From: Gymnothorax reevesii
Lineage: Eukaryota; Chordata; Actinopteri; Anguilliformes; Muraenidae
Length of the DNA stretch: 64,000 nucleotides
NCBI GenBank assembly: GCA_029721435.1
Contig: CM056574.1
Location: 75,125,501-75,189,500 of the forward strand
Direction of reading: 5' to 3'
The notes beneath the pieces were generated by a model. It saw only the letters and a list, made by a program, of their open reading frames with translations, was not told the origin of the DNA and made no database searches. The stretch's first letter is position 1; every line of letters starts with the position of its first letter. Both the position numbers and the translations under genes were made by a program. Positions 14,201-57,300 of the stretch are shown piece by piece.

Positions 14201-15713
14201 GCACAGCTTTTGATCAGCATAGTCTCTCAATGTTTTGTAATAAATTTGGTTTTGATTGGATGAAATCTCTAGGGGGAGTGCGTTAAAAAACAATATGTGG
14301 AAATCAAGCAAAAATGACACGTTAAATTCAAAATGGCCGACTTCCTGTTTGGAGTAGACAAATGATGCCAGAGACTTTTTTTTGCGTCGTGACCAAATAC
14401 ACATGTGTACCAATTTTCAGTGTTCTTCTCTAAAAAAACCCCTATGGGGAGGGGTTTTTGAAAATTTCAAGGGGGCGCTATCGAGGCTTTTTGCTGCCCT
14501 CATGGGCAAAGCCCCAATCAGATGTGAGAGCTTGCTACCCTTGACTTGTTTTTCAATTTTTATGATAATATAAGTTCATTAAAGACATCAAAAACCCAAA
14601 CGTATTTTCATGGCGAGGGATGGATTGTCGCTGCGTCACCACACGGACGCCATTATGTGTAGCTTCACAGCATTCATAGCGTAGCTTCACCAATTTGTTC
14701 AGCATGTAATAGAAGTGGAATGTGATTGATGTGATAAAGTATGTGTCCTCAGTACAAGTGAAAGCAATAAGTGGTCACTTCCTATTACCATAGGAGGGCG
14801 CTAGTAGCAAAGTGGGAAGTTAATGCATCTGGACGTTCAGGGCAGAGCAATCATCATGTAGAGCAAGTTTGAAGCTACTACAATCAAGTATGTGGGCGTG
14901 AGAGCATTGGGAATCCCAAACATATTTTCATGGCGAGGGATCCAAAGTTGCCGCTTTGCCACACGGACGCCATTACTCGTAGCTACACAATGTTCATAAA
15001 GTAGCTTCAGTAACTTGTTCTGCATGTTTCAAAAGTAAAATGAAGTTGATGGGTTCAACAATGTGTCATCAGTACAAGTGGAAGTAACGAGTGGTCACTT
15101 CCTGTTACCACAGGGGGGCGCTATTAGTAAAGTGGGAAGTTAATACATTAGGGTGTTCCCGGCGGCGCCCTTATCATGTTCAGCAAGTTTGAAGCTTCTA
15201 CAATCAAGTATTTGGGTGTGAGAGCATTGTGAAATTTTTTCCTCAAGTCACTATAATTTGTCACGCCCTAGCAGCCACGCCCATTGACCTACAGATCTGC
15301 AGAGCACAACTTTAAATCAGCTTGGTCTCTCAATGATGTGTACCAAATTTGAAGCCGATCCGGCGAAATCCCTAGGAGGAGTTCGTTTTAAAATTCAAAA
15401 ATTCAAATCAAAATGGCCGACTTCCTGTTGGGTTTAGGGCGTGGCTCCAATGAAGTTTTTTTTATGCCTTGTTACAAAGCACATAAAAACTGAATTTCGT
15501 CTACCTACGACAAAAAAACCGAATTTCCCTATGGGAATTTTGAAACGTGTTTAGGGGGCGCTATTTCGACAATTGGGGTCGAACTTGTGCGACCGCCCAA
15601 AAATATCGAATTTCGGATCCGGCCGGACAAATGGGGAAAGTTATACGCGTTTTCACAATTGGGAAAGGGGCGAAATTGGCCCTTGAAAAATCGGAAGAAT
15701 AATAAAAAAAAAA
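11204..15713 (+). repeat. Array unit 5 (composite)
   Basis: The head breaks after about 80 bases and joins a subrepeat at about 11285. A second internal join lies near 11796. At about 12746 a tail breaks off and is fused to the middle of another head ('aatgtggcattctc'). From there to 15713 the sequence has three subrepeats and nearly matches 23997-26960. The joins look like products of unequal exchange between units. Confidence 0.8.
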
Positions 15714-18376
15714 ATTAAAGCTGCAAGCAGCGTTGAACGGGCCCTCGCCCCCATGCGCACGTTGGGGTTGTGGTGAGATTATCACGGGTGCAGCTGTGCA
15801 CTCTCGACCACTGGACAGGTCAAGCGCCGGCCCCAACCTGAGAGAAAGTGTCGAGTGAATCGGGCCAAGCTGAAGGAGTTATGATAGGTTGATACTTCAT
15901 CTACCAGAAGGCGCTCAGAGTGTAACCAAATTTGGGCAGGTGCATTCAGGGGCAGACCCTAAGCACAAAAGTGAAGTTTTGAGCAAATCGGCCAGTTTCT
16001 ACGTAAAATGTGGCAATCTCTGTTTTCATCAGGGGGCATGACGAGCTAGATTGTGTAGCAGCACATCGAGGCGTTCAGGGTGGGGATTTCACTACATACA
16101 GGAATTTTGAATCCATTTGGATGAAGTATGAGGGAGAGAGAGCAGCTCGAATGTGTTTGGCGAGGCATCTGAAATGGGGACACCATGGCGGCCAGGTCCA
16201 TTTAGCGACAGACATGCAGAGCACTAATTTTGGTCAGCATGGTCTGATCAGAAATAAATATTAGGTTTATTGGACAGAATCGCTAGGAGGAGTTAGTTAA
16301 TATGCAAAATGTGGAAATCGGGCCAAAATGACACATTAAAATCAAAATGGCTGACTACCTGTTTGGAATTTATCCATGGTCCCAGAGACTTTTTTGTTCA
16401 CATTGGCAACATACACATGTGTACCAATTTTCATTTTCTAATTCCAAAAAAACCCCTAAGGGGAGGGGTTTTTCAAAATACCAAGGGGGCGCTATCGAGG
16501 CATTTTGCTGCCCTCATGGGCACCGCCCCAATCAGATGTGAGAGCTTCCCACCCTTGACCGGCATATCAATTTCCATGATGATACGAGTTCATTCAGAAC
16601 ATCAAAAACACAAACGTATTTTCATGGCGAGGGATCCATTGTCACCGCATCGCCACATGGACGCCATTTCTCGAAGCATCAAAGCATTCGTAAGGTAGTT
16701 TAAGCAACTTCTTCTACATGTTGTACAGGGGGAATAAAGTTGATGGGTTCAACTATGTGTCATCAGTACAAGTGAAAGTAAAAACTGGTCACTTCCTGTT
16801 AGCGGCCACGCCCACTGACCTACAGACCTGCAGAGCACAACTTTTGATCAGCATGGTCTTTCAATGTTTATTAATGCATCTGGTTTTGAATGGATGAACT
16901 CTCTAGGAGGAGTGCGTTAAAATACAATATGTGGAAATCAGGCAAAAATGGCACGTTAAAATCAAAATGGCCGACTTCCTGTTTGGAGTAGACAAATGAT
17001 GCCAGAGACTTTTTTTTGCGTCGTGACCAAATACACATGTGTACTAATTTTCGTCTTTCTACTCCAAAAAAACCCCTATGGGGAGGGGTTTTTGAAAATT
17101 TCAAGGGGGCGCTATCGAGGCTTTTTGCTGCCCTCTTGGGCAAAGCCCCTATCAGATGTGAGAGCTTGCTACCCTTGACTTGTTTTTCAATTTTTATGAT
17201 AATACAAGTTTATTAAAGACATCAAAAACCCAAACGTATTTTCATGGCGAGGGATGGATAGTCGCCGCGTCACCACACGGACGCCATTATGTGTAGCTTC
17301 ACAGCATTCATAGCGTAGCTTCACCAATTTGTTCAGCATGTAATAGAAGTGGAATGTGGTTGATGTGATAAAGTATGTGTCCTCAGTACAAGTGAAAGCA
17401 ATAAGTGGTCACTTCCTATTACCATAGGGGGGCGCTAGTAGCAAAGTGGGAAGTTAATGCATCTGGACGTTCAGGGCGGAGCAATCATCATGTAGAGCAA
17501 GTTTGAAGCTACTACAATCAAGTATGTGGGCGTGAGAGCATTGGGAATCCCAAACATATTTTCATGGCGAGGGATCCAAAGTCGCCGCTTTGCCACACGG
17601 ACGCCATTACTCGTAGCTACACAATGTTCATAATGTAGCTTCAGCAACTTGTTGTGAATGTTTTACAAGAAGAAAGAAGTTGATTGGTTCAACATTGTGC
17701 CATCAGTCCCAGTGGAAGTAATCAGTGGTCACTTCCGGTTACCACAGGGGGGCGCTATTAGCAAAGTGAAAAGTTAGTATATCAGGCCGTTCAGGGCGGT
17801 GCCCTCATCATGTTCAGCAAGTTTGAAGCTACTCCAATCAAGTATTTGGGTTTGAGATTGTTGTGAAATTTTTCCCTCAAGTCACTAAAATTTGTCACGC
17901 CCTAGCAGCCACGCCCTTTGACCTACAGATCTGCAGAGCACAACTTTTAATCAGGTTGGTTTCTCGATGATGTTTACGAAATTTGAAGCCATTCCGACGA
18001 AATCCCTAGGAGGAGTTCGTTTTAAAATTCAAAAATTCAAATCAAAATGGCCGACTTTCTGATGGGTTTAGGGCGTGGCTTAAATGAAGTTTTTTGTATG
18101 CCTTGTTACAAGGCACATAACAACTGAATTTCGTCTGCCTACGACAAAGTAGCCGAATTTCCCTATGGGAATTTTGAAACGTGTTTAGGGGGCGCTATTT
18201 CGACATTTGGGGTCGAACCTGTGCGACCGCCCAAAAATATCGAATTTCGGATCCGGCCGGACGAATCGGGAAAGTTAGACGCGTTTTCACAACTGGGAAA
18301 GGGGCGAAATTTGCCTTTGTAAAATCGGAAGAATAATAAAAAAAATAATAATCATAATAATGATAATAATAATAAT
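15714..18376 (+). repeat. Array unit 6
   Basis: A complete head, two subrepeats (hairpins near 16455 and 17075), two 'ggggggcgcta' modules (near 17424 and 17745) and a tail running into an AAT run. The first part closely matches unit 8, and the last ~0.75 kb matches the ends of units 3 and 7. Confidence 0.8.
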
Positions 18377-22546: not shown

Positions 22547-23700
22547 TGAAAGACATCAAAAACCCAAACGTATTTTCATGGTGAGGGATGGAAAGTCGCT
22601 GCGTCACTAAACGGACGCCATTATGCGTAGCTTCACAGTATTCATAGGGTAGCTTCATCTGTTTGTTCTGCATGTAATAGAAGTGGAATGAGGTTGGTGT
22701 GTTCAACTATGTGTCATCAGTACAAGTGAAAGCAATAACTGGTCACTTCCCGTTACCACAGGGGGGCGCTAGGAGCAAAGTGGGAATTTAATGTATCTGG
22801 ATGTTCAGGGCAAAGCAATGATCATGTCCAGCAAATTTGAAGCTACTACAGTCAAGTATGTGGGCGTGAGAGCATTGGGAATCCCAAACGTATTTTCATG
22901 GCGAGGGATCCAAAGTCGCCGCTTTGCCAAACGGACGCCATTACTCGTAGCTACACAATGTTCATAATGTAGCTTCAGCAACTTGTTCTGAATGTTTTAC
23001 AAGAAGAAAGAAGTTGATTGGTTCAACATTGTGCCATCAGTCCCAGTGGAAGTAATGAGTGGTCACTTCCTGTTACCACAGGGGGGCGTAATTAGCACAG
23101 TGAAAAGTTAGTATATCAGGCCGTTCAGGGCGGTGCCCTCATCATGTTCAGCAAGTTTGAAGCTATTTCAATCAAGTATTTGGGTTTGAGATTGTTGTGA
23201 AATTTTTCCCTGAAGTCACTAAAATTTGTCACGCCCTAGCAGCCACGCCCTTTGACCTACAGATCTGCAGAGCACAGGTTGGTTTCTCGATGATATTTAC
23301 GAAATTTGAAGCCGTTCCGACGAAATCCCTAGGAGGAGTTCGTTTTAAAATTCAAAAATTCAAATCAAAATGGCCGACTCTCTGATGGGTTTAGGGCGTG
23401 GCTCCAATGAAGTTTTTTGTATGCCTTGTTACAAGGCACATAACAACTGAATTTTGTCTGCCTACGACAAAGTAGCCGAATTCCCTATGGGAATTTTTAA
23501 ACGTGTTTAGGGGGCGCTATTTCGACATTTGGGGTCGAACCTGTGCGACCGCCCAAAAATATCGAATTTCGGATCCGGCTGGACGAATCGGGAAAGTTAG
23601 ACGCGTTTTCACAACTGGGAAAGGGGGGAAATTTGCCTTTGTAAAATCGGAAGAATAATAAAAAAAAAAAAAAAAAAAAATAATAATAATAATAATAATA

Positions 23701-26700
23701 ATTAAAGCTGCAAGCAGCGTTGAACGGGCCCTCGCCCCCATGCGCACGTAGGGGTTGTGGTGAGATCATCACGGGTGCAGCTCTGCACTCTCGACCACTG
23801 GACAGGTCAAGTGTGGGCCCCAACCTGAGAGAAAGTGTCGAGTGAATCGGGCCAAGCTGAAGGAGTTATGATAGGTTGATACTTCATCCACCAGAAGGCG
23901 CTCAGAGTGTAACCAAATTTGGGCAGGTGCATTCAGGGGCAGACCCTAAGCACAAAAGTGAAGTTTTGAGCAAATCGGCCAGTTTCTACGTAAAATGTGG
24001 CATTCTCTGTTTTCATAAGGGGGCATGACGAGCTAGATTGTGTAGCAGCACATCGAGGCGTTCAGGGTGGGGATTTCACTACATACAGGAATTTTGAATC
24101 CATTTGGATGAAGTATGAGGGAGAGAGAGCAGCTCGAATGTGTTTGGCGAGGCATCTGAAATGGGGACACCATGGCGGCCAGGTCCATTTACCGACAGAC
24201 ATGCAGAGCACTAGTTTTGATCAGCATGGTCTCTTGATGATCTGAAATAAATATTAGGTTTATTGGACAGAATCGCTAGGAGGAGTTTGTTAATATGCAA
24301 TATGTGGAAATCGGGCCAAAATGAAACATTAAAATCAAAATGGCTGACTACCTGTTTGGAATTTATCCATGGTCCCAGAGACTTTTTTGTTCACATTGGC
24401 AACATACACATGTGTACCAATTTTCATTTTCTAATTCCAAAAAAACCCCTAAGGGGAGGGGTTTTTCAAAATACCAAGGGGGCGCTATCGAGGCATTTTG
24501 CTGCCCTCATGGGCACCGCCCCAATCAGATGTGAGAGCTTCCCACCCTTGACCGGCATATCAATTTCCATGATGATACGAGTTCATTAAGAACATCAAAA
24601 ACACAAACGTATTTTCATGGCGAGGGATCCATTGTCACCGCATCGCCACATGGACGCCATTTCTCAAAGCATCAAAGCATTCGTAAGGTAGTTTAAGCAA
24701 CTTCTTCTACATGTTGTACAGGGGGAATAAAGTTGATGGGTTCAACTATGTGTCATCAGTACAAGTGAAAGTAAAAACTGGTCACTTCCTGTTAGCGGCC
24801 ACGCCCACTGACCTACAGACCTGCAGAGCACAACTTTTGATCAGCATGGTCTTTCAATGTTTATTAATGCATCTGGTTTTGAATGGATGAAATCTCTAGG
24901 AGGAGTGCGTTAAAATACAATATGTGGAAATCAGACAAAAATGGCACGTTAAAATCAAAATGGCCGACTTCCTGTTTGGAGTAGACAAATGATGTCAAAG
25001 ACTTTTTTGTGCGTCTTGGCCAAATACACGTGTACTAATTTTCGTCTTTCTACTCCAAAAAAACCCCTATGGGGAGGGGTTTTTGAAAATTTCAAGGGGG
25101 CGCTATCGAGGCATTTTGCTGCCCTCATGGGAAAAGCCCCAATCAGATGTGAGAGCTTCCCATCCTTGACCGGCATATTAATTTCCATGAAGATACTAAT
25201 TAATTAAGAACATCAAAAACACAAGCATATTTTCATGGCGAGGGATCCATTGTCACCGCATCGCCACACAGACACCATTACTCGTAGCATCACAGTATTC
25301 GTAAGGTAGTTTAAGCAACTTCTTCTACATGTTGAACAGGGGGAAAAAAGTTGATGGGTTCAATTATATGTCATCAGTACAAGTGAAAGTAAGAACTGAT
25401 CACTTCCTGTTAGTAGCCACGCCCACTGACCTACAGACCTGCAGAGCACAACTTTTGATCAGCATAGTCTCTCAATGTTTTGTAATAAATTTGGTTTTGA
25501 TTGGATGAAATCTCTAGGAGGAGTGCGTTAAAAAACAATATGTGGAAATCAAGCAAAAATGACACGTTAAATTCAAAATGGCCGACTTCCTGTTTGGAGT
25601 AGACAAATGATGCCAGAGACTTTTTTTTGCGTCGTGACCAAATACACATGTGTACCAATTTTCATTGTTCTACTCCAAAAAAACCCCTATGGGGAGGGGT
25701 TTTTGAAAATTTCAAGGGGGCGCTATCGAGGCTTTTTGCTGCCCTCATGGGCAAAGCCCCAATCAGATGTGAGAGCTCGCTACCCTTGACTTGTTTTTCA
25801 ATTTTTATGATAATACAAGTTTATTGAAGACATCAAAAACCCAAACGTATTTTCATGGCGAGGGATGGATAGTCGCCGCGTCACCACACGGACGCCATTA
25901 TGTGTAGCTTCACAGCATTCATAGCGTAGCTTCACCAATTTGTTCAGCATGTAATAGAAGTGGAATGTGGTTGATGTGATAAAGTATGTGTCCTCAGTAC
26001 AAGTGAAAGCAATAAGTGGTCACTTCCTATTACCATAGGGGGGCGCTAGTAGCAAAGTGGAAAGTTAATGCATCTGGACGTTCAGGGCGGAGCAATCATC
26101 ATGTAGAGCAAGTTTGAAGCTACTACAATCAAGTATGTGGGCGTGAGAGCATTGGGAATCCCAAACATATTTTCATGGCGAGGGATCCAAAGTCGCCGCT
26201 TTGCCACACGGACGCCATTACTCGTAGCTTTACAGCGTTCATAAAGTAGCTTCAGTAACTTGTTCTGCATGTTTCAAAAGTAAAATGAAGTTGATGGGTT
26301 CAACAATGTGTCATCAGTACAAGTGGAAGTAACGAGTGGTCACTTCCTGTTACCACAGGGGGGCGCTATTAGTAAAGTGGGAAGTTAATACATTAGGGTG
26401 TTCCCGGCGGCGCCCTTATCATGTTCAGCAAGTTTGAAGCTTCTACAATCAAGTATTTGGGTGTGAGAGCATTGTGAAATGTTTGCCTCAAGTCACTATA
26501 ATTTGTCACGCCCTAGCAGCCACGCCCATTGACCTACAGATCTGCAGAGCACAACTTTAAATCAGCTTGGTCTCTCAATGATGTGTACCAAATTTGAAGC
26601 CGATCCGGCGAAATCCCTAGGAGGAGTTCGTTTTAAAATGCAAAAATTCAAATCAAAATGGCTGACTTCCTTTTGGGTTTAGGGCGTGGCTCCAATGAAG

Positions 26701-30723: not shown

Positions 30724-31660
30724 TTACCACTGTGTTACATCGCCTTTCCTTTTAACGACACTCAGTAAACGTTTGGGAACTGAGGAGACCAATTTTTGAA
30801 GCTTTTCTGGTGGAACTCTTTCCCATTCTTGCTTGATGTTCAGCTTAAGTTGTTCAACAGTCCGGGGTCTCCGTTGTCGTATTTTACGCTTCATAATGCG
30901 CCACACATTTTCAATGGGAGACAGGTCTGGACTACAGGCAGGCCAGTCTAGTACCTGCACTCTTTTACTACGGAGCCATGCTGTTGTAACACGTGCAGAA
31001 TGTGGCTTGGCAATGTCTTGCTGAAATAAGCAGGGGCGCCCATGAAAAAGACGTTGCTTGGATGGCAACATATGTTGCTCCAAAACCTGTATGTACCTTT
31101 CAGCATTAATGGTGCCTTCACATATGAGTAAGTTGCCCATGCCTTGGGCACCAATACACCCCCATACCATCACAGATGCTGACTTTTGAACTTAGCGCCT
31201 ATAACAGTCTGGATGGTTCTTTTCCTCTTTGGTCCGGAGGACACGACGTCCACAGTTTCCAAGAACAATTTGAAATGTGGACTCGTCAGACCACAGAGCA
31301 CTTTTCCACTTTGCATCAGTCCATCTTAGATGATCTTGGGCCCAGCAAAGCTGGCGGCCTTTCTGGGTGCTGTTGATAAATGGCTTTCGCTTTGCATTGT
31401 AGAGTTTTAACTTGCACTTGCAGATGTAGCGACGAACTGTAGTTACTGACAGTGGTTTTCTGAAGTGTTCCTGAGCCCTTGTGGTGATGTCCTTTACACA
31501 CTGATGTCGGTTTTTGATGCAGTACCGCCTGAGGGATCGAAGGTCACGGGCATTCAATGTTGGTTTTCGGCCTTGTCGCTTACATGCAGTGATTTCTCCA
31601 GATTCTCTGAACCTTTTGACGATATTACAGACTGGAGATGATGAAATCCCTAAATTTCTT
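30724..31660 (-). pseudogene. Tc1-type DDE transposase, broken
   Basis: Cut-and-paste transposase acting at the TA target through the terminal repeats. Reading from the right: a helix-turn-helix region (RVIARNLGISSSPVCNIVKR, about 31590-31660), then the frame at 31192-31557 with the first catalytic motif WSDES, then the frame 30724-31173 with the second Asp in QQDIAKPH and SPIENVW for the third acidic residue. The two large frames share a phase and are separated by one TAA at 31192-31194. The N-terminal part is cut by an insertion and lacks a usable start. The active-site residues are all still readable. Confidence 0.85.
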
Positions 31661-31691
31661 GCAATAACTCGTTGAGGAATGTTGTTTTTAG

Positions 31692-31804
31692 CTCGCCAGG
31701 ACGAGTAAAGTCCGGAGAGCTATTGTCGTACCCCCGGCATCCGCGTCCGTCCGCGTCCGTGTCCGTGTCCGTGTGCGTGCAGAAAAACTTTAACCTTGCC
31801 CCGG
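31692..31804. repeat. GTCC-rich insertion inside the Tc1 element
   Basis: The Tc1 N-terminal coding region is interrupted by about 110 bases that begin 'agctcgccaggacgagtaaa' and contain 'ggcatccgcgtccgtccgcg' followed by GTCCGT repeats. Tc1-like sequence resumes at 'caatcagctcacac'. It shares its layout (a G/C-rich part followed by GTCC repeats) with 34417-34660 and 48510-48600. Confidence 0.5.
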
Positions 31805-36084: not shown

Positions 36085-38541
36085 ACACTCATTGCAACGC
36101 CCTAGCAACTACCCAGAACACTTTAGCAGCTGCCTAGTGACACCTTAGCACCCATCCTGAACACCATAGCAACCGTCTAGTAACCACCAGGTACACCTAA
36201 GCAACCACCTTGCAACGCCCTAGCAACCACACAGAACATTATAGCGACCGTCTAGCAACACCTTAGCTACTACCCAGAACACCATAGCAACCCCCTAGCA
36301 ATGCCCTAGCAACCACCCTGAACACCATAGCAACCGCCTAGCAACACCTTAGCAACCACCCTACTTACCATAGCATCCGCCTAGCAACGCCCTTCCAACC
36401 ACCCAAAACACCTTCGCAACTGCCTAACAACGCCTTAGCAACCACCCTGAACACCATAGCAACCATCCGGTACACCTTAGCAACTATTCACACATATTTC
36501 AAGAGTCTTTCTACTCTTTCATATTTTCAGAAATTCATGGTAACATTACAATCATTCACACTTCTGTCTCAAATTTGCAATTGCAGTTCAGCATCAGCAG
36601 TTCAGCAGACAGCAATCCCACCCGCAGTTTCTTCAGAAACTGTCTTTTCTAGTTATTATCATTATTCTTCCATGTTCTTCCGTAATTGCACGATTTGCTT
36701 CTCCTCCCACAGTTTTCACCCGACCCCCACAAACTACTCATGAAACTATGCAGCTTTCTTGCGAGGAGTGTGGTATGACTAATCTAAGCAATCCGAAGGA
36801 TGGATTTCCCATGATTCCCAAAAAACATGAATTTTCATCCCTCCCTCGCAACCAGGCAGAACTGCCAAGCAACTGCCCAGCAACGCCTTAGCAACCATCA
36901 GGAATACCATAGGAACCACCTGGCAATGGCTTTGCAACCATGAGGAGAACCATAGCAACAGCCTAGCAATGCTCTAGCTAAAACCAAGAAAACCATGAAA
37001 AGTGCCTTGCAATACCTTGCCAGCCTCCCTGAACTCCGAGCAACCACCTAGAACACATATCAACCTCCTAGAAACTCCCTAGCAACCACCCAGAACACCA
37101 TAGCAACCGCCTAGCAACACCCTAGCAACCACCCAGAATACCATAGCAACCGCCCATCAACGCCCTGGCAACCACCCAGATCACCATAGCGACCGCCTAG
37201 CAATGCCCTAGCAACCACCCGGAACTCCATAACAACCACTAGCAATGCCCTACTTACAATCTAGAACACCATAGCAACTACCTAGCAACGCCATAGCAAC
37301 CACCTAGAACATCATAACAACCGCCTAGCATCACCCTTGCAACCACCCGGAACTCCATAACAACCACTAGCAATGCCCTAGTAACAATCTAGAACACCAT
37401 AGCAGCTACCTAGCAACGCCCTAGCAACCACCTAGTACATCAAAGCAACCGCCAAGCAACGCCCTAGCAACCACCCTGAACACCATAGCAACCACATAGC
37501 AACGCCCCAGCAACCACCCTGAACACCATAGCAACCACCCGGTACACCTTAGCAACTATTCACACATATTTCAAGAGTCTTCCTACACTTTCATATTTTC
37601 AGCAATTCATGGTAACATTACAATCATTCACGCTTTAAAAAATTTGACTGATATTCAAACAATTTCTGTCCCAAATTTTCAATTGCAGTTCAGCATCAGC
37701 AGCTTCAGCAGACAGCAATCCCACCCTCAGTTTCTTCAGAAACTGCCTTTTCTAGTTATCATTCTTCCATGTTCTTCCGTAATTTCACGTTTTGCTTCTC
37801 CTCCCAGTTTTCACCCAACCCCCACAAATTACTCATGAAACTGTGCAGCTCCCTTGTGAGGATTGTGGTATGACTAATCTAAGCGATCCGACAGGTGGAT
37901 TTCCCACAATTCCCAAAAAAATGAATTTTCATCCCTCCCTCGCAACCAGGCAACTGCCAAGCAACGCCTGAGCAACTATCAGGAATGCCATAGGAACCAC
38001 CGGGCAATGGCTTTGCAACCACAAGGAGAACCATAGCAACAGCCTAGCAATGCTCTATCAAAAACCAAGAAAACCATGGAAAGAGCCTTGTAATACCTTG
38101 CCAGCCTCCCTGAACTCCATAGCAATCGCCTATAAATGCCCTAGCAACCACCCAGAACACCATAGCGACCCCCTAGCAATTCCCTAGCAACCACCTGGAA
38201 CTCCATAACAACCACGAGCAATGCCCTAGTAACAATCTAGAACACCATAGCAACTAGTTAATAACTGCCTAGCAACGCCCTAGTAACAACTCGGAACACC
38301 ATGGCAAGCGCCTAGCAACGCCTTAGAATCACCTAGAACACCATAGCAACTGCCTAGCAATGCCCTAGCAACCACCTAGAACAACATAGCAACTGCCTAG
38401 CATCACCCTTGCAACCACTTGGAACACCCTAGCAACCACTTGGAACACCATAGCAACTGCCTAGCAACGCCCTAGCAACCACCCAGAACACCATAGCAAC
38501 CACCTAGCAATGCCCTAGCAAGCACCCAGAATACCATATCA
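36085..38541 (+). repeat. ~43 bp minisatellite in three blocks
   Basis: Tandem units such as 'gccctagcaaccacccagaa' / 'caccatagcaaccgcctagc' repeat with period near 43 bases in blocks 36085-36490, 36840-37560 and 37930-38541. The blocks are separated by a duplicated ~370 base spacer (36490-36840 and 37556-37930, sharing 'ttcacacatatttcaagagt' and 'ctgtctcaaatttgcaattg' type sequence). The duplication implies a higher-order unit of about 1.07 kb. Confidence 0.8.
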
Positions 38542-38545
38542 ACTG

Positions 38546-43345: not shown

Positions 43346-45706
43346 TGTTCCGTCACGAGGGATTATAACACCTGATTGTATTATTTTGATTAGCCAGTGG
43401 CTTCTGTATGCTCATGTAAGGTTAATGAATGTTTATGAGTGCTTGTAAGCATGGTGATTGGAGACTGAGAGTACCATAGATTCTTTCATTTAGAGGGCTC
43501 TACTGTCTGCAAGATTCTTCAGGAGCCATCTGGAGAGTTTGATCACCTTCAAGATTCTTCTTTGTGATGTCAGTCAGGATTCTACATTATGACATCATAC
43601 AAGAGTACAAGGCCTATATAATGGGGACTTGCCGCAGACTCTCACACGCACTCAGAGAGAGGTGAAGATAATCATCTCCGGTCTGCTACACCTGAAAGCT
43701 AGACCGGCTGAGTGCAGTTAGACTTTGGATTACACAGTCACCTTTCGGATACGGACTTTGTGGTGATTAGGATCACCACACTGAAGACGTCAGATACTAG
43801 CGGAAGTTTTGGTTGATGATGACCTTTTGGCAAAAGAAGCCTTGCAGGTCTATAGAGATGAAGACCTTCGGTTTAAGGAATTAGAACGTGAAGTACGCCA
43901 AATGGAGGCGGAAACACACTGAATAGAGGCGGAAAATGAAACATGCCGAAGGGAGGCGGAAAATCAAAGACACCGCATAAAGGCAGAAACTGAAAAATGC
44001 TGAATAGAGGCGGAAAATGAGAAACGCCACATAGAGGCGGAAATTGAACAACGCCGAATACAGGCGGAAAGTGAAACACGCCGAAAAGAGGCGGAAAATG
44101 AAAGGCGCCGAAGAGGCTGCGCAGCGCGGAGGCTGAAATAAAAAGAATGAAAATGGAAGCACGTCTTAAACATCAAGCCAGCATGAAGGAGAAGGGTCAA
44201 CTTAAGCCCGCTCCAGTTTGTTTCTTTTGGAAGAAACTAGGTCATGTGATGTCCGATTGTTTCACTTTGAAGAAAAGGATGCAACCTGAGGTTAACCCTA
44301 ATGCACTTGTTTTCTCCAAGAAGCCTCGTTCTCAGGAGGCACCTGTTGTTCCTGAACATCATGTTGAGAAGTCTGACGTCAGAAGGGAATTAATTCCTTT
44401 TGTGTCTGAGGGTTCTGTATCACTTGTTAGTCAAACTAATTCTGCGCCGATCAAGATTTTTTATGATACTGGGGCAACTCAATCTTCGTTGAGTAAAGGC
44501 AAAATGCCATTTGATTCGACTTCTGCCACTGGTGAATTTGTTTTCTTGCAAGGTGTTGAATGTGGTTTTGTGAAAAACCCTTCACACGATGTTATGCTGA
44601 AGTCAGATTTGGTGTCAGGTTCTGTTGTGGTTCCGGAGTTACCGGTAAAAGGTGTTTCTTTGTTTTTGGGAAATGAATTGGCTGGAGGTAGAGTGGTTGC
44701 TGAGCCCAGAGTGGTTTATGCTCTCCAATAGTGACATGGTTGTGGAAGAGAATCCTGAAGTGTTTCCTTCTTATGCGGTGACAAGAGCTCTGGCTAAGGA
44801 AATGGCCAAATTGCAGGATGTTGAGGCTGAAGATGACATTGTGGATTTGTCAGAGACATTTCTAGATTCCAAGGAGGATCTTGGTAAATCTTCTGATCCT
44901 AGTGAGGATCTTGCTCAACAGTCCAATGCTGAGCCCAGAGTGTTTTGTGAGCCAGTCCCGTTGTCCAATAGTGACATTGTTGTGCAAGAGAATCCTGAAG
45001 TGGTTCCTTCTGGTGCGGTGACTAGAGCCCTGGCCGAATTACAGGATGTTGATATTGAAGATGACATTGTAGATTTGTCAGGGACATTTCTAGATTCCAA
45101 GGAGGATCTTAGTCAATCTTCTGATTCTAGTGAGGATCTTGCTCAACAGTCCAATGTGAAGTTAGAGACGCCAGTACCGTCTATGATAGAGATGTCTTTG
45201 TCCAGAGAGAAATTGATCCAAGAACAAGAGGTTGATCTTGATTTGAGCTCTCTATTTTATGCTGCTTTTTCTGAAGAGGAGTTTTTTGAGGTCCCAGGTG
45301 GAAACTTTGTCAAGGATGGAGTTTTTATGAGGAAGCGGAGACCACCCGAGGTCCCGGCCTCTGAGGACTGGGCAGTCATACGTCAGATCGTGGTTCCCAA
45401 GACTTATCGTCCGGGGGATCTGAGGTTGCTGACGATTATGTGTGCATCTGTGGTGATTAGGATCACCACACTGAAGACACTGAAGACGTCAGATACCAGC
45501 GGATTTTCACCATCGTCGTGAGAACATCGCAAGGACGAACAGTTAGAGGACAGTATTTCTATCTTTAATGTAATAATTTCATTACCATTTCCTGTACAAT
45601 TGTAATTGCTACGTTCATTCGCTCAGTTATTTAATACATCGTTTGAATTCAATCCTTCTAAATTGGAATCTTCCAGAAATATCTGGAACACGAAACTGTA
45701 TGTAAC
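43346..45706 (+). mobile_element. Chimeric Gypsy-type LTR element with gag-protease insert
   Basis: The insertion is bounded by CAGG on both sides (43342-43345 and 45707-45710). It begins with LTR positions 1 to about 458 (43346-43803), passes without a primer-binding site into a gag-like coding region, and ends with the last ~258 bases of the same LTR (45449-45706). The two LTR parts overlap by about 45 bases around 'gtggtgattaggatcaccac'. It is therefore a single LTR into which gag-protease sequence appears to be spliced, not a normal LTR-internal-LTR element. TATATAA occurs near 43615. No reverse transcriptase or integrase is present. Confidence 0.75.
43805..45521 (+). pseudogene. Gag-protease remnant of a Ty3/Gypsy-like element
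   Basis: The capsid-side region (about 43905-44130) has a 9-residue repeat of the form EAENExxRR, likely a coiled coil, interrupted by two TGA codons. A zinc-knuckle follows at about 44213-44260 (CFFWKKLGHVMSDC), in which the second Cys is Trp. The aspartic protease motif FYDTGATQS lies near 44460. The frame shifts by one base near 44720-44735. Downstream is an acidic region with a tandem ~79-residue duplication (EDDIVDLSETFLDSKEDL and EDDIVDLSGTFLDSKEDL). The frame then runs into LTR sequence. Proteins of this kind package and mature retroelement particles; this copy cannot be functional. Confidence 0.7.
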
Positions 45707-46365: not shown

Positions 46366-46388
46366 CAAAGCTGGCTGGAAACCAGTTA

Positions 46389-47014
46389 CGGCTTGCGAAC
46401 TGGCGATATGGGAAGCTCAAACAATCCCTTAAAAAGAATGATTGGTTATGACCTATTTCAGTCATTCATTTAAATTACCATTACAGAAACTCTGAAAACT
46501 CTCAACATCATCAGGTGTGGCCAGTTTTCATTAATAACCCATATCTGTCAACTCTCAGTTATTCGATGTGAGTTTAAGTGGCATATTTACTTTCCTCTGC
46601 TGTAATCAGCAATTATTCAATCAACACATATAGTCCAGTAAATCTAGCATTTGACCTGGGACAAATTGCCAGAAAAATGAAATTACTTGCAATGTCTTTT
46701 AATTATCATGCGTAAAGACATATCAAAAATGTAGAACAATATATTTGGTGGAACATGGTGAAATATGCAAATTAAGGTAGCCATTATCGAAATTTCTGTT
46801 TTTGCCTATATTGCCAAAAGTAATAGAGCTAGACAAGAAAATGGTGTCTATACCCATGTTTTCATGGTCAAGGAATCATACTAGACCAATTTTAGGGAGT
46901 TATGATGATTACATCATAATGAATTCAATATGGCTGCCGTGGTACGTACGCGAAAACTGAAAATCGCAATAACTTGGACAGTATCCAACCGAAGACGGCA
47001 ATCTTGGTGTCTAT
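46389..47014 (+). repeat. Left long inverted repeat
   Basis: Two blocks align to the right repeat: an outer one (46389-46545, with 'caatcccttaaaa' and 'aactctgaaaactctc') and an inner, better kept one (46631-47014, with 'ggtggaacatggtgaaatat' and 'gaattcaatatggctgccgt'). Between them about 85 bases do not match. Confidence 0.8.
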
Positions 47015-47117
47015 TTATAGGTTTTCATGGTCAAGGAGTCTATTTATCTATAATGCAGGTGTCAGTTTGTTGAAATTGAAACCAAGTCATTCCAGTTAAC
47101 CCACCTTAAATGTAGGT

Positions 47118-47336
47118 TCACATGCCCAAGATATCACGATCATCATCTGAAGTCTCATCAGTGTTCTCCAAGTTCATGTTCTCACTGATCCCCCTGCATT
47201 CACTGCAGGCTGGTGTACAGTCAAGACCCAGTCGTCTGCACCCACAACGTTTTCCGCACCCAGTCTTGCATTTGCATCTTACCACTTCCAGTAGTGATTT
47301 GGGAGCAATGTCCAAATCAGTCATAAGGGGGAACAT
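47118..47336 (-). pseudogene. C-terminal CXC (TSO1/tesmin-like) domain
   Basis: In phase with the nuclease part across a TGA (47340-47342), the last 72 residues contain RCKCKTGCGKRCGCRRLGLD followed by CTPACSECRG. The spacing of Cys is that of one CXC repeat of tesmin, TSO1, LIN54 and MSL2, which binds zinc and DNA. A short acidic tail (DETSDDDRD) ends at the natural stop. A C-terminal CXC domain would be a plausible DNA-recognition part for an element-encoded protein. Confidence 0.8.
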
Positions 47337-47339
47337 TTT

Positions 47340-48288
47340 TCATTCGATGATCTTCCACCCCCAATTTTCAGCATTCAAGCTGTTACCCTTCCACGCCTGA
47401 ACCTGGTGGAAAACACGGAAACTATGGTACTTTACTGCCCCTGAAGTTGGTGGCAATGATTTGGGGTGAATAACTTTTTTGCTAGTGGCAACTACTTCTT
47501 GAAACCTGTGCTGTCTCAGTGAGTCCAGATGGTTATCTGGCTTTACCTTGTACACACAAAGCATAGCTTTCTCCCCTGCCTGAATGATTTCATCCTCGCT
47601 GGAATCACAGTTGCCAAACACCTTAGCAAGGTCACAAAAGTATTCACTGTCCTGTGCCAACTTCAGTGCCACGCCCTTTCTATAGCCAAAGACACGTGAA
47701 GTTGTACCACAGCCAAGGAACGCATGGACAAAAAGAATGCCATTGCAAAGATCCTCTCAAAGTTTCTGACGTACACATCCAATGTTCAGAAGTTTCTCCT
47801 TTTCTCCCTTTTTTGGCTCTGGTCTCCAGAACAGATCATACTTCACATTCTTAGTATGATAACATAGAAGGACAAGAAGATCTGTATCATCTCCAGCGAG
47901 AATAACATTACACTGCGACGCAACCTGTATTGCGGTCTGGACAATAAGTAGATCAGCATCATCTTTTGCGTGGTGAACTTCACTACCAGCAGCTTCAAGG
48001 GAATCACCGAGCAAATTAATGAAACGTTGCTTGTTTTCATCGTTTGATAGGAATTCCTCTTTCTTGATCTTGAGTGACATCTGAGTTTGAAAATTGACTG
48101 CTCTTCCTTGGTGCGTTCCTAGGCGTCTTTGATGGGTGCCATCTTTCGTTGATGGCCCACTGGTGTAAGCATCAAAAACGATGACTGCCTTTCCATAACG
48201 TTTCTTCACATATGAGGTGTACCCTTGAAGGATCGACTTATAGGTGTCTCCAATTTGCCATGGAATCCTGTGAAGTCGGGCACCACCA
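47340..48288 (-). pseudogene. FEN1/XPG-like nuclease core of the large protein
   Basis: The coding sequence picks up across the hAT site (QYVLDGGARL) and reads into YGKAVIVFDAYTSGPSTKD, comparable to the VFD...P..K start of FEN1-type nucleases. Next comes HHAKDDADLLIVQTA, then VILAGDDTDLLVLLCYH, matching the two acidic motifs around the active site. After a TGA (47757-47759) HAFLGCGTTSRVFGYRKG matches the LGCDY...GIGPKRA helix-hairpin-helix region, with Gly where an Asp is expected. The segment ends with SLRQHRFQEVV, SLPPTSGAVKYHSFRVFHQV and WGWKI. FEN-type enzymes cut branched DNA. The assignment is by motif comparison only, and the Gly suggests a dead copy. Confidence 0.6.
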
Positions 48289-48509
48289 TCGAGTACTAGG
48301 GCTGGGTATCAGTCAATTTCCTAGATCGATTCGATTTCGATTATTGTGGTTTTTAATTGATTAATTGCAATCGATTCGATTCAATTTGCTTTTAAATGAT
48401 AAAAATCTCTCCATACAATGAGTTACAAAATACACATTTTCTTTATTTTGTAAATAGTACAGTTCACATGTATCTGAAAACAATATCTGTTTCCTACTGT
48501 AATTGTCCC

Positions 48510-48600
48510 CCGCCGCGCGGAACGCGTGAAGCGGCGGGACATAGTATTCACGACCGTCCGTCCGTCCGTCCGTCCGTCCGTACGTCCCGAATCCTTGTTT
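48510..48600. repeat. Hairpin plus GTCC repeat inside the hAT element
   Basis: A CCCGCCGC...GCGGCGGG hairpin, 'gacatagtattcac', seven GTCC repeats and 'cgaatcc' interrupt the 3' region of the hAT. The flanking text 'aagtgcaaatgaaagttgca' recurs at 48794, so a local duplication accompanies the insertion. Confidence 0.5.
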
Positions 48601-48829
48601 TTTTTAAAAGTGCAAATGAAAGTTGCAGCATATTGCTTGACTGCTTAAGGGAAAGATAAAAAAATTAAAAAGTACTAGTATCTCCATACAATTCGTAGCA
48701 AAATATACATCTCAAATTCACATCTGTAAAATTGACAGGTCACATGCAACTGTAAACAAAACTCTCAGCTGTAACTCTGTACTGTAACTAATAAAAAGTG
48801 CAAATGAACGTTGCAGCAAAGTTAAACAC

Positions 48830-49671
48830 TTAAGAGAGTGAGAGATTCTTGTTGAGAAAAAGGAGCTCATCGACATGTTCTGGGGTGATGCAGCTCCTTT
48901 TGGCAGTGACAATATCACCCGCCGTGGAAAACACCCTCTCTGACGCAACACTGGTCCCTGGGACACAGAGGTAGCGCTTTGCCAAACGAGCCAACAGTGG
49001 ATAGTCTTTTTCATTTGACCTCCACCAGGTTAAAGGGCTTTCATTCATCCCAGCAGGTGGTTCTTCCCTGTATCTTCTTATTTCATCTTCAGCCCTTTTA
49101 GTTGATGTTTTTTTACCATCTTCTTTTACTGGTGATGTGTAGACTGCCCCAAAGAGGGACTCCAAGGTGCTGTATGTCTTGGGTTTCTTGGGCAAAGTCA
49201 CTTCCACCATCTCCTCTGCTCCTTCACCACCATCATCTGTATTTTGCTGTTAAATAGCATAGAAAAAGAAAAATACTCTTATTTAATATTCTCAAATTTA
49301 AATACAGAATGTGCAGTATGTATGCATGTATGCAAAATACTTACATCAGGTGAAGCCATAGCAGCCTCAGCCTGCAGTCTGGAGAAGGTGCCATCTTGCT
49401 CTTCAGCAGTCAAGGATGGGAGGGCCTTAAAGCGAGGGTCCAGCGCAGTCGCTGCATACAGTGTGTCCTTCTGCGCATCATATCTTAAAAACATTTCACA
49501 CAAATCTTTTTTAAGGATAAACATTGCACTGATACAATATACAATCTCACACATACAAACAAAAGGGTGATAAATTATTAACTGCTATAACTAGTCAGTA
49601 AAATGGTAAGAAATCTTACATCTAAAAGTAAAAATACAAAACTTTGCTTTGGTCTACCAAAGTATTGTGCA

Positions 49672-49723
<52 letters not shown>

Positions 49724-51191
49724 GAGAGAGTGAGATAGACCTTACCTTGTACTCAAGTTGTTCTTTACAGCAGCCTTCAGGTCCCTCATCATCACGGTGG
49801 AATCATGCTGGCTGGGGGTCAGGGCATCCTGCAGCAAGGCGCGAAGTGGTGCAATGATGGACATCGTTGGTTGCTTGTCCTCTGATATTGCCAGTGTTGC
49901 TTCTTTGATTGGCTTCAGGGTCCGCACCAAATCTTCGCCAGTCGTTACATCTTCTTCTGTTAAGCTGCACAGATCATTTTCATTTCTACGCACATCTGGT
50001 GAAAGGAGAGTGGCAGAGATTGCCGGCTGTTGTTCCAAAAAGAGTTCGACCATTTCGAGTGCACTGTTCCACCTGGTCACAACGTCTAGTTTTAGCTTAT
50101 GTGCTGGCAGTTGAAGCAGCTTTTGTTTTTCTTTCAGTATGCGGGTTGTCGTCATACTCCGGTGAAAAAATGTGACTACACGCCTCACTCGAGCAAGCAG
50201 ACGTGACACGGCTGGGATTTTCAGACCGGCTTGTGATGCTAGGTTAAGCGTGTGAGCGAAACACCCGATGTGCATTAGCTTCATTATCTCCACAGCCCGA
50301 ACCATATTAGCTGCATTGTCGGTCACGACTGCCGGGCTTTTGCTGGTCAGCCCCCACTCCTGTATGGCCCTTGTCAACATATTGGCTATATTGGCAGCGG
50401 TATGGCTCGTCAGCACCTCGGTGGTCTGTAGTACATGAGCCATGAGGCACCACTCCATGTCAATGTAATGAATCGTCACTGTTAAGTAGGACTGCGTTGA
50501 CAACGATGTCCACGTGTCACACGTAATAGCAACTCTGTCTGCTGACTAAATTTTCATTCTTATCGCGTCTTTCACAGATGTATACATCTTCGGTATCACA
50601 GTTTCGGTCAGATGCTTACGTTGCACCATAACGTAGTGTGGCTCGAGCACCTGAACGAGCTGTCTAAATCCCTCATTTTCCACTACCGAGTATGGTCGTA
50701 AATCTCTGCAAGCAAAAGCTGCGATGGCCTCCGTTATCTTTATGGCCCGCGGAGACTCTGACGGTAATGCTAGCATGTCTTTCAGCTTCTTTTGTTTTGC
50801 TCCTGGTGGGTTGTTGTCAGACGCCAAGGTTAGCGTAGTATGGTACCTTGTCAGATGGTTTCTGAGGTTCGTAGTATTCCTACAGTAACTGAGCTCTGCT
50901 TGGCATATATCGCAAACCACCTTGGTTTTATCTAGCCCGTCGTCCTTTAAATTTGAAATGATTCCACACCTCCGATTTCATTTTGGAGTGGGGTGGCTTG
51001 CTCAGCGGTGTTTTCCCGGCCTCAGCCATTTTCTTTGCGTGCCTGAACGTCACAACGTATGACTGCGCAGCTGCGTCATCACACACGAGAGTACTGAGGC
51101 AGCAAATCTCACGCAACACGCAAGGTTGTGTTATGGGGGAAAAAAATATTTTTAAAAAACCGATTTCGTGCCTTGTGAATCGATAGTGCAA
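48830..51191 (-). pseudogene. hAT (Ac-like, BED-finger) transposase with introns
   Basis: From the right: a start frame 50928-51191 (MAEAGKTPLSK, SEVWNHFKFKG), a one-base frameshift near 50925, then CDICQAELSYCRNTTNLRNHLTRYH completing a BED zinc finger. TAG at 50546-50548 breaks KI.SADRVAITCDTWTS, the first catalytic region. Next comes VTDNAANMVRAV, with the second Asp, and CFAHTLNLASQ. An intron probably starts at AGgtaagg (about 49745). Further exons read ALDPRFKALPS (49340-49500) and, after an acceptor at 49249, WWRSNEKDYPLLARLAKRYL with ASERVFSTAGDIV (hAT dimerisation). Normal length but inactivated by a frameshift and a stop. Confidence 0.85.
49672..49722. repeat. CA microsatellite
   Basis: About 22 uninterrupted CA repeats in the presumed intron of the hAT transposase. 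Confidence 0.9.
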
Positions 51192-51340
51192 AATTTAGAT
51201 GGAATCGATCTAAAATCGATTAAATCGATTTTTTTACCCAGCCCTATCGAGTACATATTGGCAATTGGAAGGTTTGTCCGGACGATCACCCTGTGGGATC
51301 AAATCCCAAATAGCTTTTGCAAGGGATGGTTTGTTGGCTT

Positions 51341-52366
51341 TCAGCAGAACGCGCTTGTTCTCGAACAGAGCTGTGGATCGATGTTCACTTTCTCCCCATC
51401 AATTTTGATAGTTGACTTTGATTCTGGTGTTATAACCTGATTTTGTTTCTGAAATACGTATTGATTTACGTTATTTCCTGTCATATCCTCAAGAATTTTC
51501 TGTCCAACTTCCTCGGCTAATTCTACATTAACGTCCTCTCTGGTAGCTACCCCTGTCACAATATTCTGTAATGATGGACTTTCTTCAAATGGATTCCTTT
51601 CTGCCAGTATTGAAACGAGTTTGTTGGTATCAGCTATGTCCCTTGCCTGACGTGCCTTTGACAGATCTTTATGCTGCTCACTTGTTGCATACTTAACTGA
51701 AGTCACTTGCTGCATGGCATCGTTGACCTCTGCGCAAATGGGTCTGGACAGGCACCATACCAGTCGCTGTGTTTCTGTCATACCCCGTCAACCACCCGTT
51801 GTTTTAAGGCTACTCATGAGAACTTGTTCTATGACCAAATCTGGGGACAGTCCTGCCCAATAACGATCCGACCTTCGCACAACGTGCAAACCATCCATGA
51901 ACTTGGAGTAGATATCCGGATTGGAATCCTCCAGGTTCCACATTTTCTGAAGATATAGGTACACCGACTTTGTGTACAAGTTGTGTCCGGAGGCAGCAAA
52001 ATAAGGCAACATATTCTGCAAGGTAGCAAGATGCAATTTCCAGTCACCTGTTCGTTCGAACCACAGGAAGTTCCGAACAATGTCAATCAATTTCATACAC
52101 ATAACCCACAGTTTCCCTGTTCTGTGTTCTACTGTATTTAGTGCATCCAGTAATCTTTCCTTGACAGATTGGAATGCTTTTGATGAAGTTATCTCAGATA
52201 GTACCATTTGTCCTTCTAAAAGTTCATCAACTAAAAGTCGAAGTTCCTGAATTTCAGTTGGGAGAGGGATTTCCTCATCAATCAGAACTGAATCCGACAA
52301 AGGATCAATATCCTCAGAGGTGTTATCATCCTGAATCTCCATGACCGTTGAGCTATCCTTGGATTA
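51341..52366 (-). pseudogene. Middle segment II of the large protein
   Basis: After the TAA at 52364-52366 the frame reads MEIQDDNTSEDIDPLSDSVL (acidic), then a helical stretch with WVMCMKLIDIVRNFLWFERT, LPYFAASGHNLYTKSVYLYL, and YWAGLSPDLVIEQVLMSSLK. It continues through TTGG, a TGA (51788-51790) and GMTETQRLVWCLSRP. The 'AASGHNLY' and 'TTGG..GMTETQRL' strings are the most family-like. The tail (KIDGEKVNIDPQL) leads to the second frameshift near 51350. Function unknown; the region may be an all-helical domain. Confidence 0.6.
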
Positions 52367-52404
52367 GTCATCATCGTGATCATTTGTAGCAGAGGTGCCA
52401 TTAA

Positions 52405-54003
52405 CTAAAGGCCGAATGTTTTTGCCATCAAAACTGTGTTCAAAGCAGTGTCAAGCAACAAGTGACCACGTACAGCCCTTGCAACAGCCTTTCCACTCAG
52501 AGTGTGTGTAACGGTATTGGAAGCAAAGATCGTTTCCAACAATTCCTGGAGTCCAGTTCCGGCCATCAAGTGTCCTATGCTCCCGAGAAAACTCATTAAA
52601 GTGTGGAAACCTCCAAGACGGACTATAACTGAATGTAGCTGTGTGCTTGGATCTTCACTTTGTACTATCGTCATGGCTTTCCACCAGAGAGGTTGGTCGA
52701 ATGTTATTATGGGTGTCACTTCATAGCGATGTGCATGGTCAGAAACAAAGATGAGGGTAGAATAGACACAATTCATATCACTTGAGCTTAAGTCTATCAT
52801 GGGCAAAAACATAGTAGATGCCTGTCCTGGATGCTCACCATGAGTTATCAGCTGCATCATCCCGGACCATCCAGGTCGGCGAGGCTTCGCACAGAATGAC
52901 ACTTTCCATAACAGGTCTATGTCCATGAGCCTGTCTCCTAGCATTTCATCAACTCCCTTCAGTTTCTCATACTTCAATGTAGCCAAGCCGTCATGCTCTG
53001 GAGTGAATTGATGTATACGTATCCTTCCAACCTTTGCAATGTCCTCTGCAGACACACTGATGCGTTTGATTACTGATGCATGGTCAATTTTGGCAGTGAT
53101 CACGGTGATGATTCCCATTCCGTGGAAGGTTCCACTGCCATCAAGTGTTCTGATGTTGTGGTCGACATTATCCGCCACATACTGCATAAAGTGACCTTGA
53201 AGAAAACCTGGAATGTCAATGCCTGCGCTAATAGCTGCACATCGTTCATATTTAAGTACTTCGGAGTAGGAGGATGTAAATCCATGCTGGTACAGGGTAT
53301 CTAACAGAAATCTAGAAGCAAAGTGATGATGTAACTGAACACCCAGGCCTAGCTGGAGTGGAGCAATGATAACCCTAGGGCGGGTCGCCTGCATCATTGC
53401 TTGACCAACTGAGCTTATCTTTAAATTCTTCTCCTTTCCTACAAATAGGACATCAAGAAAATGTCTCAATGAATTTGGTAGATATGACTGAGTCTTCTCA
53501 GTTGAAGCCATCTCAAGTGTACTCGGATACAACTCCTTGGACTGAATGATTGACTTTATGTCGCTCTTAATTAAGTTGGCTGCTGCCTCTACCATTCGTA
53601 ACTTTTCTAACTCACCGTCAAGCTGCCCTGATTGCTGATAGAAATTGTGGAGTATAGATTGTGCCCTATGCCTGAATGTCACAACATTTTCAGTACCATT
53701 AATCTCAGTTATCAAAATGCTGTCACCATAGTGTTGCTGAAGCATTTTTTTCGTATGTTTAAACGTATACGGTTCACAATCAGGGCCTAATAGTTCTGCC
53801 ATCTTGGTGATTATATCATTGACAGTTGTCTGTTCTACATCATTTGCTTCTAAATTTTCAACAGCTTTAAGGAAAGCAGATTCCTTTTCTAAATTCGCTG
53901 GGCTTCCAACTTTTAGTTTCTTTGCACTGGTGCCGTACTCATTTTCTGTACAGCTGAGGAACTGTGGTATCTGATTGCCCTTTCTAAACTTTGAGTCACA
54001 AGC
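52405..54003 (-). pseudogene. Middle segment I of the large protein
   Basis: Continues in phase after the TAG with ACDSKFRKG and a Lys/Glu-rich linker, then from 53802 a 465-residue stretch with no stop (MAELLGPDCEPYTFKHTKKM...). It contains GSGTFHGMGIITVITAK, DLLWKVSFCAKPRRPGWSGM, VRLGGFHTLMSFLGSIGHLM and GTGLQELLETIF. I cannot assign it to a characterised fold. The 'LGGFHTLMSFLGSIG' region is well kept and may be a structural core. The frame is lost near 52430, where NTV passes into GKNIRPLVNG in the next phase. Confidence 0.65.
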
Positions 54004-54480
54004 CTAGTGATAGACACCCTCGGCTGCAAAAAGGTCTTCTCCAGCAACAACTAATCTTGCTTTCACTGTCTCAGACCATGAGTCATTGCGTTTATCACAA
54101 CATTCCATGATACTTTTGGAATATATTTTTGTTCGCACTGGAATGAGTTTATAGTCTGTCCTCCCACTGTATTTATCGCCTACACCACAGAATACGCAAT
54201 GGTCCTTGATAGAATGGGTTGGAGTTGCTGAACAGAGACTAATATGATTGTCATTCGATTGACTGTCCTCTTGGTCAAGCTTACGTATGTCTCTTTGTAT
54301 GCAATTTGGATTGATGAAATTATTGCGACACAATGTATGTACTTGTTGTCGAGGTGTCACAGCAACAGTTTCATTCCGTTCAACACAGGCCCTTGCAATT
54401 CCATCGCATCCCTTTTGCGTCAGCTTTGTCAGCGCCTCACCATTGTGAAGTGGCTTACCACAAAACACACAGTCAATCAT
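54004..54480 (-). pseudogene. N-terminal Cys/His cluster segment
   Basis: From the Met after the acceptor the frame reads MIDCVFCGKPLHNGE..., with CVFCG, GIARAC, HTLCRNNF, DHCVFCG and VYH followed (across the TAG) by ACDSKF. The paired CxxC motifs and a later H...C suggest one or two zinc-binding modules for DNA, RNA or protein binding. The open frame extends upstream to 54636, but those residues lie across a likely intron and are not conserved-looking. The single TAG at 54004-54006 replaces one codon between VYH and ACDSKF. Confidence 0.65.
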
Positions 54481-54732
54481 CCTGCAAAATAGAAATGAAA
54501 ATATTTGATTACAAAATGAGCATGCTTTATTTTCTGAAACTGTGTTTCTGCCACAGAACAGAGATAGTCTAGTACATCTAGCCAAAAACAGAGGCAAGCA
54601 GTCAGTATACCCTAATTGAGGAGGGGGGGCGTCCATGGAAATGATGTAAGAAATGACTGAAACATTTAAGCATCGTGTTTATTCAAAAGGTCGAGTTGAA
54701 AAAACCTGGGTAAATACTCAATATTCATTCAC

Positions 54733-55457
54733 ATAGACACCAAGTTTGCTGTCTTTGGTGGGATACTGTCCAAGTTATGGCAATTTTCAGTTTTCGCGTA
54801 CGTACCACGGCAGCCATATTGAATTCATAATGATGTAATCATCACAACTCCCTAAGATTGGTCTCGTATGATTCCTTGACCATGAAAACATAGGTATGGA
54901 TACCATTTTCATAAGTCTAGCTCTATTACTTTTGGCAATAAAGGCAAAAACTGAAATTTCGGTAATGGCGACCTTAATTTGCATACTTCACCATGTTCCT
55001 CCAATATATTTTTCTACATTTTTGATATATCATGTGGCAGGTCTAACTTAAACATATGACAGTGGTTTCGTTTTTCTGGCAATTTATCCTGGGTCACCCC
55101 CTAGTTTGGGCTAGATTTACTAGACTAATACGCAAAAGATTCTTTCGGGGATTTGAAGTCCTTGTGCGTGGAGGGGTTGGAAGCAATGGAATTGCGTAAA
55201 GACGTTTCAAATGATCTCATTTCATTTGAACGATCATGAAACACATGCATTGCTTCCACCCCCTGAGTAAAAAAAGCGTGAGAAGTCTGGAGTCCTAATC
55301 GGTATGTGTTATAAATGAAAGTTGCCATATCTGATAATGTGGAGAGTTTTCAGAGTTTTTGTCATGGTGATATAAATGAATGATTGAAAACAGGTCATGA
55401 CCAATCATTAATTTTAAGGGATTGATTCAGCTTCCCTGATTGCCTGTTCACGAGCCG
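54733..55457 (-). repeat. Right long inverted repeat
   Basis: Reverse complement of the left repeat. The inner block (54733-55127) aligns nearly end to end with 46631-47014, and the outer block (about 55300-55457) with 46389-46545. The middle about 170 bases are longer than on the left and contain a 67-residue open frame ending SPKESFAY, which may be a gene remnant or chance. Confidence 0.8.
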
Positions 55458-57300
55458 CCTCAGTGGAAACTGACTTTGTTTTTGTATAAGGAAGGTCGCC
55501 TTGACGATGAAACAAATTTGTGTATGTGAGTTGCCACTGGTTGCACATTGTTTATTTGAAAATTACATGATTGTCTGAACATTTGGACGCTAAAACCATG
55601 CACATGGACACGGAGTGTAACCTGAACAAATTTGGAAACTAAAACAAACATCCAACGCTCAAAAATGAAAATAAGATTCGATAACTATGAAATGGATTGT
55701 TTGAGGAGTCGGAGATTTCTACAATTCAACTAAGTGTTGTCAATGTGACCACCACTAGAGTCAGACCACCACGAGTGTCTGATGATGTGTTGCACAGTGG
55801 CGCCTGCTGCCGTACGGCAGTATGCGCTGTGCGTACCAAAAATTCTAGAGCGCATCGCTCGAAACAGTGCCAGTGCGGTGCGTACATTCAAGCTGCGGGG
55901 AGGGAGGGAGGGAGAGAGAGAGAGAGAGTGCGTGCATGCTTGTGCTGAGGGACAGGGGGGGGGCAGAATCGAGACTGGAGCGGGGTATGCTGGACTAAGA
56001 AAACACATTGGTTAGGGTTGTGACAAAGAATGAAAATGAATCTTTTTCCCCACTCTCTCTCAACGGCTGCGTGGTTCCCTCCCGATTGTTGAAAAGAGCA
56101 GTCAGCAAGCAGTTTTACTCGTGTGCGAAAAATCTATCTGTCCGTCCATAAGCATAAAATGAAGTGAAGCTTCAAACAACTCGATTCATTTCAGACACTC
56201 CCCGAAAAGCTTAAAAGCAATGACACTCAGTCATTTCGCTCAGGCGAACTCCCTGTCTAAATCAATGGAGTCATTTGACTTCATCATTGGTACAGTACAG
56301 TCGCTGTTAAAACCGAAGAGACGGCGATCTCCACGATCTAACACGCCATAACGCGGTACTTCACACTGCTGACCAATGAGCCGTATCGCAGAATAATTTA
56401 CCGCCAGGAATAACCACATGTGGCTCCGTGGAACTGAATGTAGTACCGCGTGTAAGTTATAGAATAGAGGGCATTTTGACTCAGAATTGCGTTTGTTTTT
56501 GCCGTTATGTAGGCCTATTTTAACATCTTTTTATTTTCTCTTGCAGTGAAAGTGGAAGTGAGAGGTTATGCGACCTCTGGAAAGTGTGTGGCTGATATTC
56601 TGTTTAAAAAGCCTATAGCATGAAGAAGAAAAAAATATATGATAAATTCGACAGCGTAATATCAGAAATTGTATTCTTGAAGGATTTTTTTTTTTTTGGT
56701 GTTTTAAATATGTCCTTTGATTGCAGAAACTGTGATTCTGAGAGTTTGTGGGTAGATCTTCAGCGAAGTGTGCCGCAATTGATTTATTGGCTTTTTGGTT
56801 TTGTAAAGCCAACCGCAATATAAATAAACAAATTGGCAATATACAACTTAATAGCCTGTGAGCTTATGCTCACGTTTTTCTCCGAAATAATGCGTTTTCG
56901 GACCTGCGGAGGTGTGAGGTTGTCCCTCGCCAAGGAGTCAATCTTCGTCCTAAACTGTGGGGAAATACGTCGTATTGTGATAGGTTTCATAGTTGTGAAT
57001 GTGATGTCAGTTTATGGTTGGGTATTTTATAGAAAATTTCTGCCACGCGCTGAGCAGGTCATTAATTCTTTTTTTAAAGGGATTATTAGGGTGACAATGA
57101 GTAATAAATAGAGATGACACGAACTGAGCTGTATCGAATCAGTGCCAGGTGTATCCGCTTTTAATTCCGTGAATTCAGTTTCCGAAAGAGCCATTCAGTT
57201 TTAAGTGACATTTAAGTTACTGTCCTTTAGAGATAAGCTATTGAGCAGATCTTTTTTTAAAATTGCGTTTTCCTTATTGAAAAATATATAAAAAGCTTAC
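55458..57300. other. Intergenic, no gene seen
   Basis: Short frames only. 55890-55970 is a G/A- and G-rich stretch (GGGA and GA repeats, a run of eight G). No recognisable domain. Confidence 0.5.

Follow-up and report, generated by a model that had tools for sequence, protein, structure and literature searches.

Introduction

AcademX, a lineage of the Academ superfamily of DNA transposons, carries a nuclease of XPG type. Its primary description is reportedly that of Kojima 2020, and Academ/AcademX are said to be credited also to Kapitonov and Jurka 2010. Academ is listed among the DDD/E superfamilies (excerpt of PMC9587614), and two lineages are distinguished within it: AcademH, which encodes a helicase and makes target duplications of 9-10 bp, and AcademX, in which a nuclease goes together with duplications of 3-4 bp (excerpt of PMC10045372). 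In fishes, the superfamily is recorded from zebrafish, medaka and stickleback and not from tetraodon, as far as the excerpt of PMC4746887 goes. In the present work we analysed a 64,000-nucleotide stretch of the Gymnothorax reevesii genome (assembly GCA_029721435.1, contig CM056574.1, positions 75,125,501 to 75,189,500, forward strand; hereafter the window), in which two long inverted arms enclose one minus-strand gene. The initial annotation had proposed that this locus was a transposon of a new class. We consider it to be an autonomous DNA transposon of the AcademX lineage (Academ superfamily) that is old and has been inactivated, with zinc-finger-like clusters, a DDE core, a FEN/XPG-type nuclease and a CXC-like cluster in one protein, at a probability of roughly 0.85.

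The likeness to AcademX as described in print lies in the joining of a DDE-type transposase to a nuclease, in the terminal inverted repeats and in the occurrence of the superfamily in teleosts; the element itself also has a CXC-like tail and repeats of 0.63 and 0.73 kb. Because this architecture fits the already described AcademX, the element probably does not represent a new class of mobile element: a DNA transposon bounded by long terminal inverted repeats, with a FEN-type nuclease and a CXC-like tail, was supported, whereas its newness was not, AcademX having been published already. AcademH belongs to the same superfamily (excerpt of PMC10045372) but differs in its helicase and longer duplications, and no helicase family was matched in the element parts or relatives scanned. 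KolobokE/P/D/H are comparable as DDD/E transposons that gained accessory nucleases or a helicase, although their enzymes are lambda-exonuclease-like, His-Me finger, DnaQ and RecQ (excerpt of PMC9587614).

Results

The two arms, a left one of 626 bp (46389-47014) and an inverted right one of 725 bp (54733-55457), showed 84% identity (524/623 aligned positions, gapped local alignment), and the score of 330.6 compared with a maximum of 18 among 100 shuffles of one arm, which bore out the two diverged inverted repeats annotated earlier. The arms are of unequal length because the right one has about 100 bp of additional internal sequence. The true outer ends may lie at 46382 and 55466, i.e., 7-9 bp beyond those first annotated; on the basis of this single copy, the left end would read CCAGTTA... 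and the right end CCACTGA... (reverse complement), with the common pattern CCA(G/C)T(T/G)A and AAA on either flank. A duplication of 3-4 bp as in AcademX is compatible with these ends, although in the one copy a repeat of AAA, of 4-bp AAAC or of 5-bp GAAAC fits equally when the end choice is shifted. Just beyond the outer side of the left terminal repeat, the segment 45998-46350 contains an inverted repeat of 90 nt, whose arms are separated by 41 nt, and after it a short plus-strand sequence (MTDCCAFPCTNRS...) similar to the beginning of a THAP domain.

When six relatives were aligned to this region, they revealed between the arms a single minus-strand coding region from 54480 to ~47184, whose pieces on both sides of an insert together make up ~1,470 codons, as had been annotated. 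The view that the arms enclose a single gene was thus right as to the one coding region, but it had left unmentioned a nested hAT element lying inside it at 48297-51246. The gene is damaged by four in-frame stops and two frame changes: a single frame, interrupted by one stop, covers the N-terminal and middle parts (54480-52408); the following part, 52279-51368, uses a different frame and has one stop; and a third frame extends from 51371 to 51246 and resumes beyond the insert at 48296 to ~47184, with two stops. The full protein cannot be made from this copy. From the cysteine spacing, we infer that the N-terminal clusters would bind zinc.

The locus had been annotated as lacking any DDE enzyme. 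This did not hold: the predicted structure of the middle of the protein matched RNase-H-fold transposases, and conserved D, D and E residues were found in the same part. In our reading the protein has a DDE (RNase-H-fold) core in which a large helical insertion separates the second D from the E. Other searches were less telling; sequence-only searches of solved structures gave no convincing match, the profile of alignment A3 (88 rows; bridging proteins and P0054 left out) had no match among solved structures, and the best result of Foldseek with the transposase model was only E 0.76. In structure, the core matched the P-element transposase best, clearly ahead of the others, and no Pfam transposase family was matched in the window parts of the gene; DUF6589 alone appeared, in two scanned relatives (P0020, E 2e-07; P0059, E 0.0094, under its cut-off). 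Both observations would suit a separate, undescribed DDE superfamily nearer to P elements, which gained its FEN-type nuclease independently of Academ. We regard this as unlikely, and hold in the same low regard the idea that a P-like DDE core, distinct from Academ, would need the fused nuclease for hairpins or flaps while the CXC domain would read the long terminal repeats. The P-element and hAT (Hermes) transposases are not known to carry a nuclease or a CXC tail; their target duplications are 8 bp, and no 8-bp repeat was seen at the proposed ends of this single copy. The P superfamily has a THAP DNA-binding domain, and no Pfam match to THAP was obtained in the gene parts scanned. The Kyakuja-Dileera-Zisupton (KDZ) group combines a KDZ transposase domain with CxC domains; when the window parts were scanned together with 13 relatives, at E values up to 1, no KDZ or CxC Pfam family came up, which is weak evidence. 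A separate superfamily is made less likely by a named lineage that already pairs a DDE transposase with a nuclease (excerpt of PMC10045372).

The nuclease region was predicted to adopt a FEN/XPG-type fold on comparison with FEN1/EXO1/XPG, at ~9-16% identity in structural alignments; it resembles these enzymes in fold and acidic residues, and differs in being one domain of a transposon protein. This fold favoured the earlier reading of a FEN1-like core, and the cysteine-rich tail was seen as well. The acidic residues are kept in 114-117 of the 118 aligned relatives (five positions without a gap in any row), and D43 in 107/109. The window has LGCG in place of the motif annotated as LGCD; 116/118 aligned relatives have D at the last position, and one conserved nuclease aspartate is lost in the window copy. 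Moreover, the range 48288-47340 that had been taken as the core does not begin in frame at 48288; the open frame spans 48299-47121, of which the gene's own bases stop at 48296, 48297-48299 belonging to the nested hAT. Pfam XPG was matched neither in the window part nor in five nuclease relatives scanned, two of which gave a sub-threshold Pfam CXC match (E 0.03 and 0.35), and the profile of alignment A1 found EXO1 among solved structures only at E 0.25. Among the relatives listed, depositors had named three Tesmin/TSO1-like CXC proteins (P0131, P0161, P0196) and two '5'-3' exonuclease' (P0126, P0187). A match of the C-terminal part to the toxin-like Pfam family TNT (17 and 15 bits) was taken as chance, since it lies below the cut-off of 27 and is at odds with the nuclease model. 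The well-supported nuclease fold and the conservation of its acidic residues in relatives are what could be said for a new class that lacks a DDE enzyme and moves by means of a FEN-type nuclease; with a DDE-type core and its conserved D, D and E in the same protein, such a class is very improbable.

The window, searched with its own pieces, held no second copy of the element. Elsewhere, a scan of viral contigs with alignment A1 yielded 58 pattern matches and one of genome contigs with alignment A3 yielded 43, none of them confirmed. A host gene lying by chance between unrelated inverted repeats, which the annotation of several relatives as ordinary uncharacterised proteins of animal genomes might suggest, is hardly credible given repeats 84% alike directly outside the gene on both sides, a broken gene that carries a nested transposon, 1075 and 391 related protein clusters counted in two homology searches, and a transposase-like core.

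The nested hAT transposon has ends that match each other (TAGGGCTGGGTA/TACCCAGCCCTA) and is not part of the older element, whose nuclease region was its insertion point. Its open frames are split into several pieces, by introns or damage. The coordinates of all features are collected in Table 1.

Table 1. Features of the AcademX-like element, the nested hAT and a tandem repeat in the window
Feature	Position	Strand	Remarks
Left terminal inverted repeat, proposed extent	46382..47014	+	aligned portion from 46389
Right terminal inverted repeat, proposed extent	54733..55466	-	aligned portion up to 55457
Candidate 3-bp target duplication AAA, left	46379..46381	.	single copy, weak
Candidate 3-bp target duplication AAA, right	55467..55469	.	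single copy, weak
N-terminal part, two cysteine/histidine clusters (zinc-finger-like)	54004..54483	-	terminates at in-frame stop
Middle part, helical region and start of predicted RNase-H/DDE-type transposase core (ADNVD, TFDQP motifs)	52405..53997	-	
End of predicted transposase core with third acidic residue (DLVIEQVLM), and linker	51368..52342	-	other frame, one in-frame stop
Predicted FEN/XPG-type nuclease domain and C-terminal cysteine-rich CXC-like domain	47121..48299	-	two in-frame TGA
Nested hAT transposon, 2,950 bp	48297..51246	-	BED zinc finger, hAT dimerisation region, sub-threshold DUF659 match
8-bp target duplication TCGAGTAC of nested hAT, left	48289..48296	.	
8-bp target duplication TCGAGTAC of nested hAT, right	51247..51254	.	
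320-bp tandem unit, seven places	4807-5445, 7911-8527, 11883-12521, 14595-15233, 17229-17857, 22563-23191, 25840-26478		

Other features were observed in the surrounding sequence. Open frames at 44102-45521 look like retroelement gag/protease (cysteine knuckle, DTGA motif), with no Pfam match at E 0.01; a piece of a Tc1/mariner-type transposase lies at 31192-31719 (HTH_Tnp_Tc3_2, E 1.1e-09), and minisatellites of CCTAGCAACCACC-like units occupy 36085-38545. A 320-bp unit (CCCAAACATATTTTCATGGCGAGG...) was present in about two tandem copies at each of seven places; as these start 2.6-5.3 kb apart, they may belong to a larger repeated unit.

Discussion

For an AcademX protein of this architecture, the zinc and CXC parts would bind the long terminal repeats, and the DDE core, judging by its fold and conserved residues, would cut and join the ends in a cut-and-paste manner. 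The FEN-type nuclease may trim a flap or branched intermediate, cut the other strand, or help to create the short target duplication.

The claimed new class of transposon is removed, and the enzyme supposed to be missing is present. The question that remains concerns the lineage as a whole, namely why a DDE transposase retains a FEN-type nuclease with conserved acidic residues.
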